From a virus: a stretch of DNA of 26,255 nucleotides. This document shows positions 1 to 22,478 of this stretch, one piece after another. The DNA lies in the IMG/VR virus record IMGVR_UViG_3300024520_000433, positions 1 through 26,255 of that record, one strand, 5' to 3'. The position numbers and the translations under genes were made by a program. The first letter of the stretch is position 1, and each line of letters begins with the position of its first letter. Under the pieces are notes generated by a model. The model did not search any database. It had not been told where the DNA came from and worked only from the letters and a program-made list of their open reading frames with translations.

Positions 1-2
1 TC

Positions 3-443
3 AGCCATGCCTATCTAAGCTGTGCCAATCTCAGCGGTGCCGATCTCAGCTATGCCAATCTCAGACATGCCGATCTCCGCCATGCCAATCTCAGCGGTGC
101 CAATCTCAGCAGAGCCAATCTCAGCGGTGCCAATCTCTACTCTGCCGATCTAAGCGGTGCCTATCTAAGCTATGCCAATCTCAGCTCTGCCTATCTAAGC
201 GGTGCCGCCTTGGAAAATATCACGGTCTCATGGGATAGTCATAGCCTTCTTTCCGAACTATTATGGAGAGAAGCTGATACCATACCTCGTCAAAAGACTG
301 CGGCATTTGTTGGTCGCAAACAAGAGTGGTGTTGGAACGATTTTGCCTCCTGGCGTGATCCTCATAAAAATTGGGCCATCGGCGTATTGAAACAATATGT
401 AAAAGACGCCGACAACGCACCCGATATGATAACGAAAGGATAA
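3..443 (+). CDS. Pentapeptide-repeat protein, C-terminal part (5' end outside window)
   Basis: The frame is open from the window edge to a TAA at 441-443, giving 146 visible residues. The first part is 13 consecutive A(N/D/Y)L-x-x pentads (for example [15 protein letters not shown]), which in this family fold as a right-handed quadrilateral beta-helix. A non-repeat tail of about 78 residues follows, with aromatic motifs EWCWNDF and NWAIGVL and an acidic end. Tails of this kind occur in other phage and bacterial pentapeptide proteins. Some family members (Qnr, MfpA) mimic DNA and bind gyrase, but nothing here shows that activity. An internal TTG at 210 could look like a start, but the upstream repeats are in the same frame, so the true start lies left of the window. 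A Shine-Dalgarno for the next gene lies inside its end. Confidence 0.85.
9..203 (+). repeat. 15-nt tandem repeat encoding pentapeptides
   Basis: Thirteen in-frame 15-nt units of the form gcc-aat-ctc-agc-ggt with variable last codons. Conservation follows the protein pattern (A, N/D/Y, L), so this is coding repetition and not a spacer array. Confidence 0.9.
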
Positions 444-3002: not shown

Positions 3003-4070
3003 CTAAAATACAAGATTCTGAAAGTAAGTCATAATGGGCGTAGGTGTATGCGTATCACTTGACCACCAGAAACTATACACAGGGATATTATTTGTTTTAA
3101 CAATGTCAATCTGCGTCTGAAGCGTTGATACCAAAACCTCAGTCAAGTGTGCGCTTGATCCGCTGTTAAAAATATGGAAAGTCATAATAGGGAATGGTGG
3201 TAAAGCCGTGCCGTCTGATTTTAGAATAGTAGCCGCTTCATCGATGGCAAGCTGCGTATATGCCGGCAAGGTGCTGAAATTAGGTTCCGATGCACCAAAT
3301 CGGGTATACATAACGGGCAGGATATAATCCATCATATCGAAAACACCACGATTGCCCATCTCCCGATATCCAAGCATAGACGTTTGATGATCGGACGCAC
3401 CCGCAAGACCTTTTCCCTGGACAACTGGTGCCCACCACATCAATTTAGCGTTCGGGAACTTGGCACGGGCAATATTGCCACGTCTTAAAAAACCATCAAC
3501 CAGAGCATCAAATTGCGCTGGATCGTGTTGTGTGTGCAAAGGATCGAATAGGTTGCCCATCCATCTCATATTGCGCGGATGTTCAGCGTCTACTAAAACC
3601 CAATCGGTTGTTAACGGATCAAGCGTAGGATGGGCGGCAAGATAGTCGTCTAATGCCTGTTGTATTTGTGCATCAGTATAAGCTATAAATTGTGCCTCTG
3701 TATCGCCGTTGATAGATTTGACGGCGTAACCGTTCATACTCCAACAATCGTTTTGTACACCTACGGACGCCACGTCAAGCGATGTGTAGAAATTCTGCCC
3801 TATAAAGCGCGGTCCTGGTGTTACACCGGGGGGGGGGGGGGGGGGGGGGGGGGTTGTGGGGGGGGGGGGGGGGGGGGGGGGCGGTGGTGGTGGATCGGTC
3901 AGACTATCTTTGTACAGAACGATTAATGCCTCAAGTTCATTAACCAATAACGCATGGGCCTCGTTTGCTTCATCAAGACCATTAATCTGTATCGACTGAT
4001 CAATGGTACTCTGGTCGATCTGTGCTATTTTTGCCTCTATCTGTTGTAATAGTTCCTCTGATGTAGCCAT
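3003..4070 (-). CDS. Coiled coil, poly-proline linker and TIM-barrel (hydrolase-like) protein
   Basis: A 355-aa modular protein. Residues 1-58 are a helical, Q/E/L/I-rich coiled coil, likely an oligomerising stalk. Residues 60-81 are 12 prolines, Thr-Thr, then 8 prolines. Residues 85-355 look like a TIM barrel of the glycoside-hydrolase kind: strands such as DWVLVDAEHP (acidic residues plus aromatics nearby), NAKLMWWAP, MMDYILPVMYTRF, FPIMTFHIF and VYSFWW at successive strand ends. This resembles a tail-associated sugar hydrolase or receptor-binding protein. Because two small membrane genes follow, it could instead act in lysis. The proline linker is encoded by two long homopolymers (see repeat entry). 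I am sure of the reading frame and architecture, less so of catalysis. Confidence 0.65.
   Translation of the reverse strand: MATSEELLQQIEAKIAQIDQSTIDQSIQINGLDEANEAHALLVNELEALIVLYKDSLTDPPPPPPPPPPPPTTPPPPPPPPGVTPGPRFIGQNFYTSLDVASVGVQNDCWSMNGYAVKSINGDTEAQFIAYTDAQIQQALDDYLAAHPTLDPLTTDWVLVDAEHPRNMRWMGNLFDPLHTQHDPAQFDALVDGFLRRGNIARAKFPNAKLMWWAPVVQGKGLAGASDHQTSMLGYREMGNRGVFDMMDYILPVMYTRFGASEPNFSTLPAYTQLAIDEAATILKSDGTALPPFPIMTFHIFNSGSSAHLTEVLVSTLQTQIDIVKTNNIPVYSFWWSSDTHTPTPIMTYFQNLVF
3828..3881. repeat. Twin poly-G/poly-C homopolymer tracts
   Basis: On the plus strand there are 26 consecutive G (3828-3853), then TTGT, then 24 consecutive G (3858-3881). On the coding (minus) strand these are C runs encoding prolines 64-71 and 74-81 plus the third-codon context, and as given they keep the TIM-barrel domain in frame. 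After the tract, one alternative frame meets a stop at its second codon and the other after 16 codons, so any length change not divisible by three removes the catalytic domain. Confidence 0.9.
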
Positions 4071-10863: not shown

Positions 10864-13016
10864 AGCTTGAGCCTCCGTTTTGCGCTTTGTACTGCGTCTA
10901 CAACCATTTTCTCCATGGCTGTTTGATCTGTTGCACTGGTCCCAGGTCCAAAGTGAAAATTGAACGTGTCACCACCAGGCGCTTGCCCCGTGATATTGGC
11001 CGCTGCGAACGCACCACGACCAAACCGGCGCTCAAAGCTGTCCATAAAGGATGCATTCGCCACACCCTCATTTGAGTGTACGCCTATCATCTTCGTTCTG
11101 CTGCCTATATTCCCGATCTCCATACCGGATCGTGCCATAGGTATAGGACCGTTCTGTATGCGTCCGGCGCTGCCTGATTTGAAAAGACCACCGGCAAAAC
11201 CGATACCTGCTCCTAACGCAGTTCCAACACCGGGAACGATAGACCCAATGGCAGCACCTACACCAGCGCCTACCAAAGCGCCCACAGCTTTATTCCCCAC
11301 CAAAAGCCCCAAATCCTTAACAAAATCTTTAAACGTTTTTTGCATCAATAGTAATTCTGTTACAAGTCCTGAAACTTCCTGGGTCAAACTCCCAACAAAG
11401 TTTTTCGCTGTAGGAATCTGCTCCTTAAACGCAGACATAATACTATGAGAACCGGCAAGGGAATTGCTCATATCGTCTATTGCCGCAGGCAACTCAAGCA
11501 ATGGTTGTTTTATTCCCCTTGCTTCTTTCTGTGCATCGGCAAGAGATTGATTGAATTCGTCTGTGTCTATTACTAAATCGGACACAGCTACTTGAACAGG
11601 GCCAAATACGTTGAGGAATGTGGAGACATCGAATTCCTCAAATCCCGTGGCTATTTCATCAATACCTTTTTTTATGTTGCCAAATAAATCTTTTTGAGTT
11701 TTATCCATTTTTTTCTTGGCTTTTGTAAACGAGGCGGCAACGATATCAAAATCAAGAGCCATAACACCATCAATAAATTCTTTGACGAAATCTTTCAAAA
11801 TAACAAAATTCAAAATCCATGTTTTGATTTGCGATCCGATAATTCTGCCCACGCCGGTAAACACCTTGGCTATTGCACTTACATTTTGTTTGTTGATCAA
11901 CAACCATGTATTTAATGTCCTCATCCCTAACACAACTCCTGGTAGAATTGTCTTTCCAAGTTCAATAAATGTGGCGTTGAGGTTGTTTTTTAATAACTGA
12001 AACTGATTGTTCATTGTACCGTTCATCTTATCGAATGCTTCATTGACATTGCCAGAGGCATTATTCATGTTTCCTAATTGTTTTGCGAATTCTGCCGCAC
12101 CTGTACCCGCTATAACAGACGCTGCACGGAAGGACCGTATATCAGGAACGATCTGCGTGAGTAAATCAATGTTATCTCCGGCTTTTTCATTCAATTCAGC
12201 AAGGAAACCAGCAAACCCTTTAGATCGTATACCAGCGGAAGATAGGTCAATGCCCAACTTCTTAGCTGCGTTGCTTGCTTCTTTGGTAGGGGATATGATC
12301 TTAAGCATCAAGTTATTAAGCGCCGTCATAGTTTCATCGGCACTTATACCTGATTTTGTCATGGTCGCTACTGAGGCCGCAATTTCTTCTATCGTCACAC
12401 CTGCTAACGACGCTGTATTTGCCACCTGCCCGATACTTCCGGCTAATTGATCATATGTGATTTTACCCTGTTTGACCGTCTCAAAAAAGACATCATTGAT
12501 ATTCATAGCTTGCGATGCAGATAATCGATAAGCATTCAAGACTGTTGTCGTAGCGTCCACCGCTACCGCAGTAGTAGACAGTCCAGCAGTGGCGGCACGA
12601 GCAGAAACATTAAGGACACTCATAGCCTCGTTTGCATCCGTTACACCAGAGGAAAAAACCTGATAAAGACCAGCGCCCAAATCATCCGCAGTTTGTGGAA
12701 CTGTCCGACTTAAATTCAATACGCTCTCAGACAAACCTTCAACATTTATATTAGCAGTATCGACAATCGTCGATACTTCTGCCATGCGAGTTTCAAAATT
12801 GGCAAACGACCTTGTGACTTTCGCTATAGCACCAATCGCCCCCCCGATACCCGCAAGAGCAAGAAAACCACCACCGAATCGTTTTAGTGATGCAGTGGCA
12901 GAAGTCGCCGTTCGGTTGAATTTATCAACACTCGCGCCGCTCTTTTTTAGCTTGTTTTCAAAATCTCTCGACTGCAAGACCATTTGTACTTTGATGGCCT
13001 CTGTTATAGTTGCCAT
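10860..13016 (-). CDS. Tail tape measure protein
   Basis: 718 aa. The N-terminal region is helical (FENKLKKSGASVDKFNRTATS), followed by the TP901-type core: FANFETRMAEVSTIVDTANI, LNLSRTVPQTADDLGAGLYQ, VKQGKITYDQLAGSIGQVAN, MTKSGISADETMTALNNLML. Near residue 630 is an Ala/Gly-rich hydrophobic stretch (LVGAGVGAAIGSIVPGVGTA) of the kind that spans membranes during DNA ejection. If the usual figure of about 1.5 angstrom per residue holds, the tail would be near 100 nm. The start shares a base with the chaperone stop (TAATG at 13016). Position, length and motifs agree, so the call is secure. Confidence 0.93.
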   Translation of the reverse strand: MATITEAIKVQMVLQSRDFENKLKKSGASVDKFNRTATSATASLKRFGGGFLALAGIGGAIGAIAKVTRSFANFETRMAEVSTIVDTANINVEGLSESVLNLSRTVPQTADDLGAGLYQVFSSGVTDANEAMSVLNVSARAATAGLSTTAVAVDATTTVLNAYRLSASQAMNINDVFFETVKQGKITYDQLAGSIGQVANTASLAGVTIEEIAASVATMTKSGISADETMTALNNLMLKIISPTKEASNAAKKLGIDLSSAGIRSKGFAGFLAELNEKAGDNIDLLTQIVPDIRSFRAASVIAGTGAAEFAKQLGNMNNASGNVNEAFDKMNGTMNNQFQLLKNNLNATFIELGKTILPGVVLGMRTLNTWLLINKQNVSAIAKVFTGVGRIIGSQIKTWILNFVILKDFVKEFIDGVMALDFDIVAASFTKAKKKMDKTQKDLFGNIKKGIDEIATGFEEFDVSTFLNVFGPVQVAVSDLVIDTDEFNQSLADAQKEARGIKQPLLELPAAIDDMSNSLAGSHSIMSAFKEQIPTAKNFVGSLTQEVSGLVTELLLMQKTFKDFVKDLGLLVGNKAVGALVGAGVGAAIGSIVPGVGTALGAGIGFAGGLFKSGSAGRIQNGPIPMARSGMEIGNIGSRTKMIGVHSNEGVANASFMDSFERRFGRGAFAAANITGQAPGGDTFNFHFGPGTSATDQTAMEKMVVDAVQSAKRRLKL

Positions 13017-16821: not shown

Positions 16822-17790
16822 CTACTGTGTACGGATGTGAACGCCAGGTAGATTTTTATCATCCGCTGAGATCTGATCCCAATTGGTACTTGTACCCAAT
16901 GTGGCGTCAGTCGGAGCGGCTCCACCGTTCGTCTCATCCCAGGTCATACCCTTGAGTGACAAGAAAAAGTCATATTCTGCCTGGTAGAACATGGTGATGT
17001 TCTCTCCGCCCTCTTTGAGACCACTAAGAACTTTAGGCGGTTTAGCAAGCTGGCATGTGACTGCATTCTCGACAAGGCCCAGTGTGACATATTCATCCGT
17101 GGTCTTGTCTCTGAATAGTGCCGCAGCATCGCGTTGTAATATGTTACGACCCAGGGCAGCATTATCACCATTAAGGATAACCAGACTGGCAGGTCCATCA
17201 ATGGCATTTGTAATATGATCGCTCATCAGGTCATGAGCAGCCTTCGAATGCATGATCCAGTGTCTAATAAGACTGGCAGCATCGCCCATCTTACTAAGAC
17301 CTGTCACCAGATCCTCAATACTTATTGTGGCCGCAGCGTCTGGATGCTCTTGAGAAGCCTGACCGTCAAGAGCCGCTTCCACAGCGAGAATAGCCGTATC
17401 AAGCATATCCTGCATCTGCGCTGCTGCAAGCTGTGTGCCGATGGCAAAGTTGAACTCATTTTCTGTCATGCCGATCAGATTAAACGAATCAAGCGTATTT
17501 TCGACGAGATCCAACTTGCGAGTTACACGTACTTTCGACTGACGAATCTCAGCGAGAGGCGATGCCGTCTGCGCTGACGTACTGGTAGGATCGCGATGGG
17601 AAATCAGCGTTGCGATTTCACTAAAATAGTTTTCTCGCAGATAATCACCCATGCCATCCTCAGTGATAAAACGAATGGTATTACTGGTCGCACCGTTAAA
17701 ACCGTCCACAGTACCAGCGACGACCTCCGTCCATCCAGCATGTACAAATTCGTTTTCTATCTGTACATTTGCCTTTGTACCTACAGCCAT
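16822..17790 (-). CDS. Major capsid protein
   Basis: 322 aa. It follows the scaffold gene directly (13 nt) and shows the HK97-type flow: an N-arm, an E-loop region with TRKLDLVENTLDSFNLIGMTENEFNFAIG, a long helix (LAAAQMQDMLDTAILAVEAAL), IRHWIMHSKAAHDLMSD (P-domain turn), and LSGLKEGGENITMFYQAEYDFFLSLKGMTWD near the end. 'WIMHSKAAHDLM' is a frequent capsid motif. GAGAGGG lies 7 nt upstream of the ATG. No protease gene is seen, so the scaffold may not be cleaved by a phage protease. Confidence 0.87.
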   Translation of the reverse strand: MAVGTKANVQIENEFVHAGWTEVVAGTVDGFNGATSNTIRFITEDGMGDYLRENYFSEIATLISHRDPTSTSAQTASPLAEIRQSKVRVTRKLDLVENTLDSFNLIGMTENEFNFAIGTQLAAAQMQDMLDTAILAVEAALDGQASQEHPDAAATISIEDLVTGLSKMGDAASLIRHWIMHSKAAHDLMSDHITNAIDGPASLVILNGDNAALGRNILQRDAAALFRDKTTDEYVTLGLVENAVTCQLAKPPKVLSGLKEGGENITMFYQAEYDFFLSLKGMTWDETNGGAAPTDATLGTSTNWDQISADDKNLPGVHIRTQ

Positions 17791-17803: not shown

Positions 17804-18541
17804 CTATTCAGGAAGTTTCAAAAACGCTTCCCTGCCATGTTCTTCCACATAAGCAGTCTTCTCTTGTATTGACATTTCAGACCGCTTACTATTGGTTGTC
17901 AACTTGCCATTAGTACCACTACCATGTGATGCACCGCCGCCCGAAGACGATTTAAACAGATGAGGTGCATTTTCTCGTAGTGTGCTCATCCATTCGCCCA
18001 TATCGATCGGGTTACCATCCTTACCACCGACAGCGATTCCCTCCGGCGTCAATGCTACCGGTTTCCCTTCTCGTAGTTGCCAGACATTCGATGCTCTGGA
18101 CGTAATATCCGTCAACGCCTTTTCTTCAGCGCCTGCATCGATAGCGGCAGCGGTGAGCTTATCCGTCAACATGTATTTCGTGACCTCGCGGGAAAGATTC
18201 TCTTTTTCCTGTTGCAGTGTGGAAACCTGATCTTTTAAAGGTTTTGCACGTTCTTCGTACAGATCCTCGAACTTACCGGCATCAATGAGCTTCTTTTCTT
18301 TTAATGCCTGTTCATTGTCCTTATATTTCTTGAACTCATCAAGATCGACTCCCTCGAACTCTTTGAGCTTGTCCACAGCTTCATTAGCCCTGGCACGTTC
18401 TTTTTCTATTCCCGACTTCAATCCGCTTGTATCCTCTTTGACATTGCTATCAAGAACAAACTTCCCGTCTGTCTCGGTATACAACGCATGGTATTTTTCA
18501 TCTACACCATCAAGAGTGGCTGTTTCATGTGGTAATGCCAT
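17804..18541 (-). CDS. Capsid scaffolding protein
   Basis: 245 aa, very charged and helical: GIEKERARANEAVDKLKEFE, DLDEFKKYKDNEQALKEKKL, AGKFEDLYEERAKPLKDQVS, LQQEKENLSREVTKYMLTDKL. These are signature segments of siphovirus scaffold proteins. A Gly/Ser linker (SSSGGGASHGSGTNG) precedes a C-terminal helical domain (SEMSIQEKTAYVEEHGREAFLKLPE) of the kind that binds the capsid subunit. AAAGGAA lies 7 nt before the ATG. The gene begins a transcriptional or translational unit after the structured leader at 18542-18787. Confidence 0.88.
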   Translation of the reverse strand: MALPHETATLDGVDEKYHALYTETDGKFVLDSNVKEDTSGLKSGIEKERARANEAVDKLKEFEGVDLDEFKKYKDNEQALKEKKLIDAGKFEDLYEERAKPLKDQVSTLQQEKENLSREVTKYMLTDKLTAAAIDAGAEEKALTDITSRASNVWQLREGKPVALTPEGIAVGGKDGNPIDMGEWMSTLRENAPHLFKSSSGGGASHGSGTNGKLTTNSKRSEMSIQEKTAYVEEHGREAFLKLPE

Positions 18542-18787
18542 TTTTTCATTTCCTTTCTACGCTTCCCGCGCAACCACCTTCCCGGTGGATTTTTAAAACC
18601 CCACAAAAAAACGGCTGTAAGAGGATAAGCTCTTATCAGCCGTTTCTATTGTGGGAACATGCAAGCCCGGTGCCCCAGGTCATTGCTTATTCCGTTATTT
18701 GATTGTCACAGGCTTCCCGCCTGTCATTTATTAAACCTTTCACATAAATTCACAGTTTACACCTTCATCCCTGTCTTTCATTTCCAT
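18542..18787 (-). other. Structured non-coding leader between the glycosyltransferase and scaffold genes
   Basis: No gene is supported in these 246 nt. Read on the minus strand it holds, in order, a hairpin ACAGGC-GGGAA-GCCTGT (18708-18724), a hairpin CCTGG-GGCA-CCGGG (18666-18679), a long terminator-like hairpin (18600-18655), a hairpin CCACC-GGGAA-GGTGG (18574-18588), a short stem with the same GGGAA loop (18558-18572), then the scaffold ribosome binding site. No clear -35/-10 pair is visible. It is the longest gap between genes in the late block. Confidence 0.65.
18604..18645 (-). terminator. Intrinsic terminator-like hairpin before the scaffold gene
   Basis: On the minus strand, AAACGGCTGATAAGAG pairs with CTCTTACAGCCGTTT (15 bp with one bulged base) around the loop CTTATC, and seven T follow the G/C part. 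This fits a Rho-independent terminator for the packaging and glycosyl/methyl unit. An additional outer stem (CCCACAA with TTGTGGG, 18600-18606 and 18649-18655) would enclose part of the U run and could weaken termination. Confidence 0.75.
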
Positions 18788-19435
18788 TCAACCAGCCTTC
18801 TTCTTTGCCCCCGTATATGGGAACGCTTTTATATGATACGGATTCTGATGTTCTGTCACCTTGCCATTGTTAAACGGCGTTATAATATGCTCTACACGTC
18901 CAATATTAACAATTTCAGCCTTCGGGTCAAGTTTTTGTACCGTTTGCCAGAAAAAGGCATCGCTGTGATGTCCGCTTGCAGAACGCCCCCTATCGATCAC
19001 TTCGGAACCATCCGCAGAGAGAACAAAATTCCACGATTGGAAAACAGGCTTGGGAAGACGCTGCAAAATGGTCAATGGTATTTTGGTGAATACATTCCCT
19101 GTCCACAGTAAGTCGCCAGTATGCTTATTGTACCGGACGTTTATCGTTCCATAACGTTCAACCGCTTCTGCAAACTGTATGGTTGCTGTTCCATCACCAT
19201 TTATTCCATCCCATTGGATTTTATGCCACAAATCAATTGGGACTCGGATATCATCCTCTATCAGTAAGAGTGCCTGATTTTCTTCCAGAGCTTTATTAAC
19301 CGCTTCATTCTTTGCATCAATTAATTTCTTGCCACAGATAGGATAAAACAAATTGTGTCCGGCCTGTGCTTGTTCCATAGCTTCATATACCAATTGTACC
19401 GGGGCCATACCACGGCTAATATATCCCACTACCAT
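18788..19435 (-). CDS. Second glycosyltransferase (GT-A-like), 215 aa
   Basis: 215 aa, starting VVGYISRGMAPVQLVYEAME, with DAKNEAVNKALEENQALLLIEDDIRVP (about 41-67). Here a hydrophobic strand ends in the EDD of a GT-A metal-binding motif, the place of DxD in nucleotide-sugar transferases. Later GTINVRYNKHTGDLLWTGN and a His-rich stretch (SASGHHSDAFFW) fit the acceptor half; the last part, HIITPFNNGKVTEHQNPYH, is like a C-terminal metal or substrate loop. The gene overlaps the GT2 gene by 7 nt, so the pair is coupled. The sugar and acceptor are unknown. Confidence 0.7.
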   Translation of the reverse strand: MVVGYISRGMAPVQLVYEAMEQAQAGHNLFYPICGKKLIDAKNEAVNKALEENQALLLIEDDIRVPIDLWHKIQWDGINGDGTATIQFAEAVERYGTINVRYNKHTGDLLWTGNVFTKIPLTILQRLPKPVFQSWNFVLSADGSEVIDRGRSASGHHSDAFFWQTVQKLDPKAEIVNIGRVEHIITPFNNGKVTEHQNPYHIKAFPYTGAKKKAG

Positions 19436-20193
19436 ACCCGTTCCCCGTATTTCGCTCGTAGCACACCCATTGACTGCTGTTGCATGGCCGCAATCTCTTT
19501 ATCGCTGTAAAGCGCCTTAAACGTTGTCCTATGCTTATGCTCTACGAAAGCATCCAAGCATATGAGCCGTTTGTACCCGGCTGCATGTATACGTTCGTTA
19601 TAGTCGTCATCTTCCCCGAAGCCTTCGCCCATTTCCTCAGACAGGTACCCGATTTTCTGTATACATTCACGGGTGATCATCGTGCAGAAAAATGCCGGGT
19701 GTTCTTCTCGCTCCAATACTCGAGGAGTTGTTACTACAGGCATATATTCCTCGTTGTCTTCTTGTGCTTCTGTTATCCAACCTCTTTTTGCTAGCCGCGT
19801 GGGTCTCTGCCATCCAGACGTGGAAACAGTACTTGCAAGCATAGAATTAGGTGTATTTTCAATGGCTTCTCGCATAGTATCGAATACATCGGATCTCAAT
19901 ATAACGTCATTGTTAAGGAAAATAACATAAGGCGCTACTGAATTAGCTATACCCAGGTTGGTAGCCTTGGGGAAACCCCAATTTTCAGGATTGAATATGA
20001 TGAAATGCATCATGCCTGTGGTATAGATATGTCCCATAATATCGCTGGTATGATCCGGTAAAGACCCGTTATCTATCCATATCAAACGCATCTTATCGAC
20101 TTCCCGCATCTCCGACAATGACGTGATAGCTTGCTTTGTTTCATCGGTCTGGTTGTACGTTGGCATTATCACATCATATAAGGGCTTATCCAA
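19429..20193 (-). CDS. GT2-family glycosyltransferase
   Basis: 254 aa with the GT-A order of family 2: DVIMPTYNQTDETKQAITSL (7-26), IWIDNGS (38-44), NPENWGFPKATNLGI (68-82), FLNNDVIL (92-99) with the metal-binding NND, FFCTMITRECIQKIG (168-182), GEGFGEDDDYNERIHAAGYK (189-208) with the catalytic ED region, and VEHKHRTTF (217-225), the family C-terminal His motif. Such enzymes move a nucleotide-activated sugar to another sugar, protein or DNA. It lies in the accessory cassette between head genes, so virion or host-surface glycosylation are both possible. Confidence 0.87.
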   Translation of the reverse strand: MDKPLYDVIMPTYNQTDETKQAITSLSEMREVDKMRLIWIDNGSLPDHTSDIMGHIYTTGMMHFIIFNPENWGFPKATNLGIANSVAPYVIFLNNDVILRSDVFDTMREAIENTPNSMLASTVSTSGWQRPTRLAKRGWITEAQEDNEEYMPVVTTPRVLEREEHPAFFCTMITRECIQKIGYLSEEMGEGFGEDDDYNERIHAAGYKRLICLDAFVEHKHRTTFKALYSDKEIAAMQQQSMGVLRAKYGERVW

Positions 20194-20671
20194 TGTTTTC
20201 CCATCCTATAGTAAAAGCATTAATTATGAGCGTAACAGGATTCATTTTAGGATTTCGCTTTGTGCCATTCCATATACCGATCTGCATAAAAACACCACCA
20301 TCTTCTTTAATATGCACACGACCGGTCCGAAGCATATTCTGTCTATCGATCAAGCACATCATAATACCTATAGGCATCTGGTCATCAAGCACAACATGAA
20401 TATCATTTCCCGTTATCTTAAAATTGACGTGTATCTTGCCCTTTGAATGCTGTTTATGCCATTCAAATTGTGGTTTGTACGGTTTCCACTCCACCTTGAA
20501 ATTACTGATATTGCCGAACGGCACGGGCTTATCATTTACCCATATTGTAGGCGTTTCCTTGGAAATAACGCCCGTCAAACGTTGCGTTATCTTGCCTTGA
20601 ACGGATTTATCCCATTTATGAATCTTTCGGTCGTCTTTACGCTTTATAGATGTGCCTCTTATCTCGATCAT
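20186..20671 (-). CDS. Hypothetical protein in the glycosyl/methyl cassette, 161 aa
   Basis: 161 aa, basic (many K and R) and beta-rich: MIEIRGTSIKRKDDRKIHKW, then TPTIWVNDKPVPFGNISNFKVEWKPYKPQFEW, then GKIHVNFKITGNDIHVVLDDQ, then RVHIKEDGGVFMQIGIWNGT. No signal, membrane helix or recognised enzyme motif. It overlaps the methyltransferase by 4 nt upstream and the GT2 gene by 8 nt downstream, so it is made with them; it may be a carbohydrate-binding or scaffold partner of the enzymes. The assignment is open. Confidence 0.7.
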   Translation of the reverse strand: MIEIRGTSIKRKDDRKIHKWDKSVQGKITQRLTGVISKETPTIWVNDKPVPFGNISNFKVEWKPYKPQFEWHKQHSKGKIHVNFKITGNDIHVVLDDQMPIGIMMCLIDRQNMLRTGRVHIKEDGGVFMQIGIWNGTKRNPKMNPVTLIINAFTIGWENIG

Positions 20672-21381
20672 AGGAGATTGACCTTGAGTAATATCTTTGT
20701 TTGGTCGTTATGGTCTGTCGTTTCACCATCCCATATATATAGAATTTCACCATAAGCGCATAATAGGTCTAATATCATATATTTGCCGAATACAGATCTA
20801 CGCCCACGGTCTTCTATACCTGTTGGGCTATTCGGTGGGTAAAAAAACCATGTCGAATATAACAGGCCATCGCTTGTAGGAGAATTCAGAGCTTTAGACA
20901 TTTGGTCTATATAATTAACGACAGCATCAAAGCTGACAAGATGTGTAAATAGACTTGAAGCGATCACAATATCATATTTTCCAGTATCAGGAAATTCGAT
21001 TTCACACGCTTCATTTTTGCCTGATATGTAGTGTGGATTATATACATCCAAATGCTTAAAACTGAATTCTGGGAACGTTTTAAACAGATCGTTGCAGAAT
21101 TTGACACACTGCGGTATGGCTTCAAGCCCCGTGTATCCTTCTATCCTTCTCTCTGTAAGCGGCGCCGCCCACCGTCCATTTCCAGATCCCACGTCCAGTA
21201 CATTTTTACCCTCGAAATCAACGCCCTGAACCTCAAGCTCTTTTATTAGACTATCGCCAGATTGATATATCATATCATGATTCTCTGGAATATATCCAGC
21301 CTGTGCCATTGATAATAACCGATTCCAAGAATCCGCAGGGGATATACCCATTTCTAATGATGCGGGGTATTCGGTCGTCAT
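20668..21381 (-). CDS. Class I SAM-dependent methyltransferase
   Basis: 237 aa from ATG 21381-21379, which overlaps the upstream stop (ATGA). An upstream in-frame ATG at 21519 would add 46 residues but lies wholly inside the Mu F-like gene, and its extra residues lack order, so I chose the coupled start, with GGAG 8 nt before it. Motif I VLDVGSGNGR (61-70), TGLEAIPQCVKFC (84-96, motif II acid at Glu87) and YDIVIASSLFTHL (136-148) are the Rossmann SAM-binding series. The target cannot be told. Small-molecule, sugar O-methyl or protein methylation are all possible, and the neighbouring glycosyltransferases favour sugar. Confidence 0.8.
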   Translation of the reverse strand: MTTEYPASLEMGISPADSWNRLLSMAQAGYIPENHDMIYQSGDSLIKELEVQGVDFEGKNVLDVGSGNGRWAAPLTERRIEGYTGLEAIPQCVKFCNDLFKTFPEFSFKHLDVYNPHYISGKNEACEIEFPDTGKYDIVIASSLFTHLVSFDAVVNYIDQMSKALNSPTSDGLLYSTWFFYPPNSPTGIEDRGRRSVFGKYMILDLLCAYGEILYIWDGETTDHNDQTKILLKVNLL

Positions 21382-22478
21382 TCCAGTTGCTCCAACGTTA
21401 GCGGCCGACCGCGTTGATCGATCAGGTCTGTCATACTGATTTTGCCATCCTGCCACAACTTCAGACGCCCCGGTCCCAAAGCTTCTGTTTGCCTTGCCAC
21501 CGTTTGTTTCTTTAGCCATCCGTCAAATGTGAGGTCTCCGGCAACTTGCCCGTCCATGCTGGTCTGCGTACCCGGTCCAAGTTTTTCGAGCGCATCGTCA
21601 AAACGTTTCCCCTTGGCACCTACCAGATCATTAAACGATTTCAATACCGTTATCAATACCGTTCTGCAGCGCCAGTGCCACGGTGGTGGTCCTGGGTATC
21701 GTGTGCGTACAGGCGATTGTGGCAGCGGGCGTCCTGTTTTAAGATTCCACGCACCACCGGATCGGGCCTTGCATATATCACTTGTACGTGTGTCCAGCGT
21801 GGCAAGCGCCTGTACGCCCCGGATTACATCGTCGTTAGCCCTGAACGTACTTTCACGCGCAGCATTAGCGACCGACGCCGTGGACGTTCGAACAATCCGA
21901 TCTGCATTTTTTCGTGTTATGCCCATGATGCCATTCTGAAAACGAGCCTCCCTGGTTCCCCGTACCCGGCGCATAAGGTCACTATTCGTTTCATTCAAAA
22001 ATAATCCCTGACGCATCTGATCTCTGAATTGCTCGCGTGTCACTACCGCTTGCCGACTCCACCAGTCCTGTACCGGCGCACCCTCGATTATAACGTCATC
22101 GACCAAGGCCCGCAGGTCTGTCGCTGTTGGCAATGATCCCAAAAGATCAATACCCACAGTCCTATTGACTATTTTCTGTGCGTTGACCGATTCCATCACG
22201 GCAAGATCTTTTAGCATACCCTTCTGGTCTTTGGCAATGCCCGCATATCCATCACGCAAAATTTCGTTTACAGCGGACATAAGCTTTGTAAGGCGTTTCT
22301 GTCTAAATGTTTGCCGGATCGGTTCTGTAGGATCTTCGATGGCTATATGCTGCAACAAGGACCGCTGAACATCGTTCAAGAGTGTAAAGACACGACGCCG
22401 TTCACCTTCTGACAGCCTGTTAAGCTGTAGGTCACGGAATGTGAAGTTGTCGGCTAAGTTTTCAGATATGTTAGCCAC
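21378..22478 (-). CDS. Mu F/SPP1 gp7-like minor head protein
   Basis: 366 aa. The conserved core is ATLDTRTSDICKARSGGAWNL (about 226-246) and PGPPPWHWRCRTVLITV (262-278), the defining segments of phage head morphogenesis (Mu F-like) proteins; the cysteines and histidine may bind metal. The N-terminal 150 residues are helical, as in other members that reach into the capsid interior. It follows the portal gene with an 8-nt overlap, the usual portal-then-MuF order. Such proteins are often ejected or hold a toxin domain, but none is visible. Confidence 0.88.
   Translation of the reverse strand: MANISENLADNFTFRDLQLNRLSEGERRRVFTLLNDVQRSLLQHIAIEDPTEPIRQTFRQKRLTKLMSAVNEILRDGYAGIAKDQKGMLKDLAVMESVNAQKIVNRTVGIDLLGSLPTATDLRALVDDVIIEGAPVQDWWSRQAVVTREQFRDQMRQGLFLNETNSDLMRRVRGTREARFQNGIMGITRKNADRIVRTSTASVANAARESTFRANDDVIRGVQALATLDTRTSDICKARSGGAWNLKTGRPLPQSPVRTRYPGPPPWHWRCRTVLITVLKSFNDLVGAKGKRFDDALEKLGPGTQTSMDGQVAGDLTFDGWLKKQTVARQTEALGPGRLKLWQDGKISMTDLIDQRGRPLTLEQLE

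Follow-up and report, generated by a model that had tools for sequence, protein, structure and literature searches.

The product of gene 43 of phage T4, the DNA polymerase, represses its own translation by means of an mRNA hairpin that lies some 40 nt before the start codon and is read through its loop, and the loop of this operator varies between T4-like phages (PMC3014915). By analogy, this autogenous repression by gp43 is the closest documented mechanism for the locus analyzed here, with which it shares a hairpin in phage mRNA upstream of a start codon and candidate recognition of the loop. However, the T4 operator combines one hairpin with ribosome-site sequence and involves a replication gene and an unrelated protein, whereas here two to three hairpins with the same loop precede scaffold or coat genes. 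In P22, according to work by King, Casjens and colleagues, free scaffold (gp8) is said to tune its own synthesis post-transcriptionally; in that phage the gap before the scaffold gene is of 13 nt, which leaves no room for an array of hairpins, and none is present there, in contrast with the 246-nt leader and its array described below. In MS2-type RNA phages the coat protein represses translation by binding to a hairpin loop, but viruses and genes are different, and in our case the copies are in tandem, their loop is uniform and the ligand is putative. The principle of translation control by a phage protein via hairpin loops is already known, while tandem arrays with a uniform loop, placed before the scaffold and coat genes of diverse siphophages, do not seem to have been described. 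No description of the element was found in a literature search that had most subscription journals outside its coverage; a 2017 catalogue of 224 candidate RNAs may reportedly list phage motifs. Rfam 15 gave no match in the window at the gathering score, and with E values up to 10 the region 18400-18900 gave two chance-level matches only; in 22 related loci the sole match was int-alpA, outside the scaffold leader. RNA annotation by families can overlook a hairpin motif whose stems vary freely. To our knowledge, the matching of scaffold and coat synthesis to assembly in dsDNA phages has been studied in few models, and a recurrent array outside Rfam provides a sequence handle on it in cultured phages (HK639, Vibrio MAR10), besides offering candidate orthogonal RNA-protein pairs.

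The window, i.e. the whole stretch of DNA analyzed, is a 26,255-base IMG/VR virus record that corresponds to a partial genome. Its minus strand carries a siphophage-type structural operon with the order terminase large subunit, portal, Mu-F-like minor head protein, a cassette (methyltransferase, unknown gene, family-2 glycosyltransferase and second unknown gene), scaffold, Gp13-like major capsid and tail genes. The methyltransferase/glycosyltransferase cassette, at 18788-21519, is inserted between the minor head and scaffold genes; the related locus L177 has a short glycosyltransferase-like ORF at the same place, at its 3' end, and L018, L049 and L060 harbor several kb of extra genes there. 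Genes of the head region are tightly packed, the 246 nt located 5' of the scaffold gene being the longest gap. The head scaffolding protein (17804-18541, minus strand; 245 aa) was assigned by phrog_206 (E 2.8e-39), scores below the Pfam cut-off for PF06810, and had no known RNA-binding domain reported. After a further 13 nt comes the gene for the major capsid protein (16822-17790, minus strand; 322 aa, Gp13-like, PF20036).

In transcript order, all on the minus strand, the leader presents a hairpin H1, a GGCA-loop hairpin, a terminator followed by seven T, hairpins H2 and H3, the Shine-Dalgarno (SD) region and the ATG at 18541. H1 (ACAGGC[GGGAA]GCCTGT, 18724-18708; 6 pairs, -9.2 kcal/mol) lies upstream of the terminator. 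H2 (CCACC[GGGAA]GGTGG, 18588-18574; 5 pairs, -7.5 kcal/mol) and H3 (TGCGC[GGGAA]GCGTA, 18572-18558; 5 pairs, one of them G-U, -6.4 kcal/mol, weakest at its base) have their loops about 42 and 26 nt before the scaffold start codon, respectively. The preliminary description, which had pointed out three GGGAA hairpins surrounding a terminator and ending at the scaffold ribosome binding site, was right in these respects: the three are present by sequence and by folding, the terminator (18644-18605) stands among them and the scaffold starts at 18541. A hairpin missing from that description, H4 (GACAGA[C-GGGAA-G]TTTGTT, 18473-18455), lies within the scaffold coding sequence; this fourth copy may be due to chance, since it codes for D-G-K. 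Between H1 and the terminator there is a small hairpin with a different loop (CCTGG[GGCA]CCGGG, 18666-18679). The intrinsic terminator (18605-18644; -18.5 kcal/mol alone) consists of AACGGCTG-A-TAAGAG..CTCTTACAGCCGTT followed by 7 T (18611-18605) and reads AACGGCTG.TAAGAG..CTCTTA.CAGCCGTT; it was overlooked by a simple scan because the stem has a bulge, and its place relative to the leader is the same as that of the terminators of relatives. The SD region (GAAAGGAAATG, 18547-18557) is unpaired in the minimum-energy fold.

H1, H2 and H3 share C-GGGAA-G on unrelated stems. Pair probabilities from a partition function computed over the whole leader were at least 0.92 throughout H1 and H2 and 0.99-1.0 for the inner pairs of H3, and the fold of the leader was better than those of all 200 dinucleotide shuffles (z -4.7). 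Three hairpins (of at least 3 bp) with a common GGGAA loop were obtained in none of 2000 Markov shuffles of the leader, and with any common 5-base loop in 9 of 2000. Both strands of the window contain five GGGAA-loop hairpins with at least 5 pairs, four of them on the minus strand within 18455-18724 and the other one at 11459, plus strand. The leader also contains the only two exact copies of GGTTTWAWAAAT in the window (18589-18600 and 18726-18737, minus strand), each just before a GGGAA hairpin: one is part of GGTTTAATAAAT (18726-18737), a single base upstream of H1, and GGTTTTAAAAAT (18589-18600) is directly upstream of H2. The pair could be a duplicated -10-like or unknown element. No sigma-70 promoter was recognised on the minus strand at 18600-18800, nor after the terminator, so that transcription of the head genes must come from read-through or from a phage-specific promoter. 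It was also observed that positions 18787-18638 (minus strand) are tiled by three tiny ORFs (MEMKDRDEGVNCEFM, MTGGKPVTIK and MTWGTGLACSHNRNG), the last of which has its TGATAA stop within the ascending arm of the terminator, as would be expected of a leader peptide.

No DNA match to the leader was found among cultured phages, nor any close relative covering it: L177 and L178, identified by single-protein and alignment searches and 53-61% identical in their terminase, portal or minor head protein, stop short of the scaffold gene, and identity with other relatives is at most around 42%. The element was therefore judged by what precedes the scaffold gene in distant phages, and its link to the window rests on position, loop and architecture. 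Before the scaffold gene, a Loktanella contig (L199) has GTTGGC[GGGAA]GCCAAC and TGAC[GGGAA]GTCA; the Leisingera locus L198 has GGGGC[GGGAG]GCCCC and TAGC[GGGAA]GCTA, plus two further hairpins at the 3' end of the scaffold gene; and L174 has GCGC[GGGAA]GCGC and TTCC[GGGAA]GGAA. From 51 loci with a scaffold related to that of L199, 32 distinct leaders were obtained, and in 31 of them the scaffold ATG is preceded by two C-GGGA(A/T/C)-G hairpins; in the remaining one, L309, the first loop is CGGATG. In the window, likewise, two C-GGGAN-G hairpins stand immediately 5' of the scaffold gene (H2 at -42, H3 at -26). In the 27 distinct two-hairpin sequences of this family 97.7% of cells are paired, two-sided compensatory changes are seen in 8 of the 10 pairs, and the two-sided cells amount to 65 versus 18.9 in shuffled alignments (0/500); the closing C-G is invariant and the loops are constant except for the last base of the first one. 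When the window was taken together with L198, L199 and L174, their eight GGGAA hairpins, sequences that had been picked as hairpins, were 100% paired, with 12 two-sided cells versus 3.3. The conservation of loops and stems that had been proposed as a check is thus found in distant relatives, as the same loop at the same place on covarying stems. A covariance model of the two-hairpin unit, built from the family with the window left out, was run over the 26-kb window and ranked H1 first (15.3 bits, E 0.016) and H3 second (12.7 bits, E 0.068), with weak E values, H4 being the third match (E 1.5); L198 and L174 scored 46 and 22.5 bits. H2 and H3 were not aligned as one unit because their loop-to-loop spacing of 16 nt is shorter than the 17-22 nt of the family. 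A terminator upstream of the first hairpin, as in the window, was detected in 13 of the 32 leaders, a scan result that is an undercount when judged by eye. A hairpin upstream of the terminator, as H1, was not seen in relatives, whose hairpins lie downstream.

Scanning portal neighbourhoods for GGGAA hairpins gave nothing relevant, and the general pattern emerged after widening the scan to all loops and to scaffold and coat starts. The layout recurs with other loops in cultured as well as uncultured phages. In the cultured phage HK639 (L210), gggtc[GGAT]gacct and ggcc[GGAA]ggct come after a terminator, and in Acinetobacter phage B1251 (L215) there are three GGAT loops along with a terminator. 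GGAT loops are found 5' of both scaffold and coat genes in Salicola phage CGphi29 (L208), and the coat gene of Vibrio phage MAR10 (L204) is preceded by a terminator, a sequence resembling a promoter, and two GGG loops. Statistics were done on a dereplicated set from around 220 loci with gaps of at least 35 nt, the window being included among 61 scaffold cases. At least two hairpins with identical closing base and loop were present in 11 of the 61 scaffold leaders (Fisher p 4e-10) and 6 of 38 coat leaders (p 4e-6), versus 9 of 1096 other leaders, with the provisos that genes were called by a simple script, so some start codons are off, and that thresholds were chosen after examples had been seen. 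Markov shuffles of the scaffold and coat leaders gave means of 0.04 and 0.01 leaders with a repeated loop; no repeated loop was present in 50 of the 61 long-gap scaffold leaders. Among C-closed hairpins, G occupies the second loop base in 97 of 142 in scaffold and coat leaders versus 158 of 616 elsewhere. Triloops of the type C-NGN-G were counted 73 times in sense and twice in antisense orientation in scaffold and coat leaders, versus 60 and 46 before other genes, a strand bias that points to RNA rather than to a DNA operator. Identical-loop pairs within leaders numbered 33, versus a mean of 5.6 and a maximum of 14 over 2000 trials in which loops were redistributed among leaders: a leader mostly keeps to one loop, and this loop differs from phage to phage. 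Pairs of C-GGN-G triloop hairpins 18-26 nt apart occur in the coat leaders of L011, L014, L038, L077, L060 and L062, where they precede P22-type coat genes as a coat counterpart of the scaffold arrays. A promoter hairpin of the N4 type was considered for the C-GGA-G triloops and dropped, the loop lying here on the coding strand; that of N4 is on the template strand.

The type of loop is associated with the scaffold protein. On a tree of 40 scaffold proteins, loop class required 11 changes versus 25.6 for shuffled labels (0/200), and all eight GGAN loops fell in one clade with support 100. Both P22-type coats (HK639, CGphi29) and Gp13-type capsids (B1251, Mannheimia 1152AP2, L127, L132) are represented in this clade, so that the loop follows the scaffold rather than the capsid. 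In L110, L129, L133 and L153 repeated C-GAT-G triloops, whose second position is not G, were observed around the scaffold start, and these phages form one group on the tree. Where both scaffold and coat leaders have hairpins of the element, the loop class is common to both, and it does not track host class, gammaproteobacterial phages and prophages having GGAT, GGG or AGA. The main alternative reason for the tree signal is that it could arise from mere co-inheritance of leader and gene.

From sequence comparison, the leader is very probably an RNA cis-regulatory element. With less assurance, its loops are probably recognised in trans by a partner that binds RNA in a loop-specific way. The earlier proposal that one protein binds the hairpins stands in so far as loops are mostly identical per leader, vary between phages and are set on the sense strand; the partner itself is a putative one. 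Scaffold is the most economical candidate, because loop class follows the scaffold tree, matches in the coat leader, crosses capsid families and ignores host class, and we tentatively regard it as a putative ligand. Taken as a whole, our best reading, to which we give an even chance, would be an operator array, located behind a terminator, for a loop-specific RNA-binding factor, likeliest the scaffold protein as a repressor of its own translation. Unassembled scaffold would bind the tandem same-loop hairpins located between the intrinsic terminator and the scaffold ribosome binding site and block initiation on its gene; repression would extend to the capsid gene through the 13-nt junction, and head-protein synthesis would thereby be matched to assembly. 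The terminator would limit read-through from the packaging, methyltransferase and glycosyltransferase genes, and the head genes would thus make up an expression unit of their own. The idea, already advanced, that the leader sets the level of capsid against packaging and modification genes is plausible, because the terminator separates the methyltransferase/glycosyltransferase cassette from the scaffold gene and because a conserved promoter-like sequence is present in the same gap of three relatives. A more general and still less secure proposal would be that tailed phages whose capsids are P22-type or Gp13-type share an undescribed class of RNA operators, with tandem hairpins of one phage-specific loop before scaffold and often coat genes, read by scaffold, co-evolving with it and responsive to assembly. 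In the three relatives just mentioned (L018:19008-19027, L049:17283-17302 and L060:9699-9718) the common promoter-like sequence is TTGTCANNTAGTGCCATTGG, located in the gap before the scaffold gene. A -10 resembling TATATA/TTATAA comes after it and a second copy of the type GTGCCATT(G/T)G lies upstream; it looks like a regulated head-gene promoter.

An unlikely alternative to an operator array is that the hairpins, with no reader of their loops, passively protect the mRNA, shielding the 5' end of the abundant scaffold/capsid message or marking processing between cistrons. This would agree with the high levels required of head mRNAs, with a first hairpin about 5 nt after the start predicted from the promoter-like TTGTCANNTAGTGCCATTGG in L049 and L060, and with one close after the scaffold stop codon in the coat leaders of L049, L060 and L018, but it needs neither one identical loop per leader (33 pairs versus 5.6 expected) nor a near-invariant loop on covarying stems. 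Even less likely, SD-like loops could load or delay ribosomes in the absence of any protein, by SD presentation or ribosome standby. The loop or the 3' arm of the last hairpin does contain the SD in many relatives (C-GGA-GG, C-AGA-GGAC, or C-GGGAA-G at -11 to -15); however, the loops repeated in the upstream copies do not resemble an SD (TGT, GAT, TGC, AGT), and the SD of the window stands apart from the hairpins and is unpaired. That three hairpins of unrelated origin should look alike by chance in a 246-nt leader is the least credible explanation. It could appeal to the leader being the longest gap around the head genes and to the fourth copy as a possible coding coincidence, but the shuffles (0/2000 for GGGAA, 9/2000 for any common 5-base loop) argue against it and, for the general element, it is refuted by recurrence with covariation in relatives.

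Two further explanations invoke known RNA-binding proteins. The preliminary description had also suggested an antitermination RNA, in which a phage N-like protein would let RNA polymerase through the terminator. The loops of lambda boxB differ between phages along with their N proteins, and the resemblance to lambda nut/boxB is that of a short hairpin with a GNRNA-type pentaloop, which GGGAA fits, with H1 upstream of a strong terminator. We consider this improbable, since most relatives' loops (GGAT, AGA, TGT, GAT) do not fit GNRNA, H2 and H3 are in the wrong order with respect to the terminator, 19 of the 32 GGGAN leaders have no terminator close upstream in the scan, relatives' hairpins lie downstream of it, and hairpins flank the terminator on both sides in the window alone. 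In addition, no boxA-like sequence was noticed by eye 5' of H1, the boxA-like CCTCTTAC being present only within the terminator stem, and no N-like gene was recognised in the 26-kb partial genome, small Arg-rich proteins not being reliably found by homology. Less probable still would be repression by host CsrA/RsmA through binding to the GGA of each loop. CsrA/RsmA targets have several GGA-loop hairpins near the ribosome binding site, and the repeat of CsrB is CAGGA(N)G; a GGA is contained in each GGGAA loop of the window, and phages of gammaproteobacteria have GGAT/GGAA loops. Nevertheless, many relatives have loops devoid of GGA, including AGA in a genome that carries CsrA (Methylomonas MAG), and no CsrA was found in three genomes with GGGAN-loop prophages (Leisingera, Loktanella and a Burkholderiales MAG) nor in the phage records searched.

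Two other features of the window were observed outside the head genes. Positions 1-206 (plus strand) contain a 15-nt tandem repeat, GCC AAT CTC AGC GGT (A-N-L-S-G), which codes for pentapeptide repeats and is truncated by the record's edge. At 3828-3893 there is a 54-base run of nearly pure G (C on the minus strand), unusual for a phage with 45% GC, by which a 355-aa protein acquires a long stretch of poly-proline.
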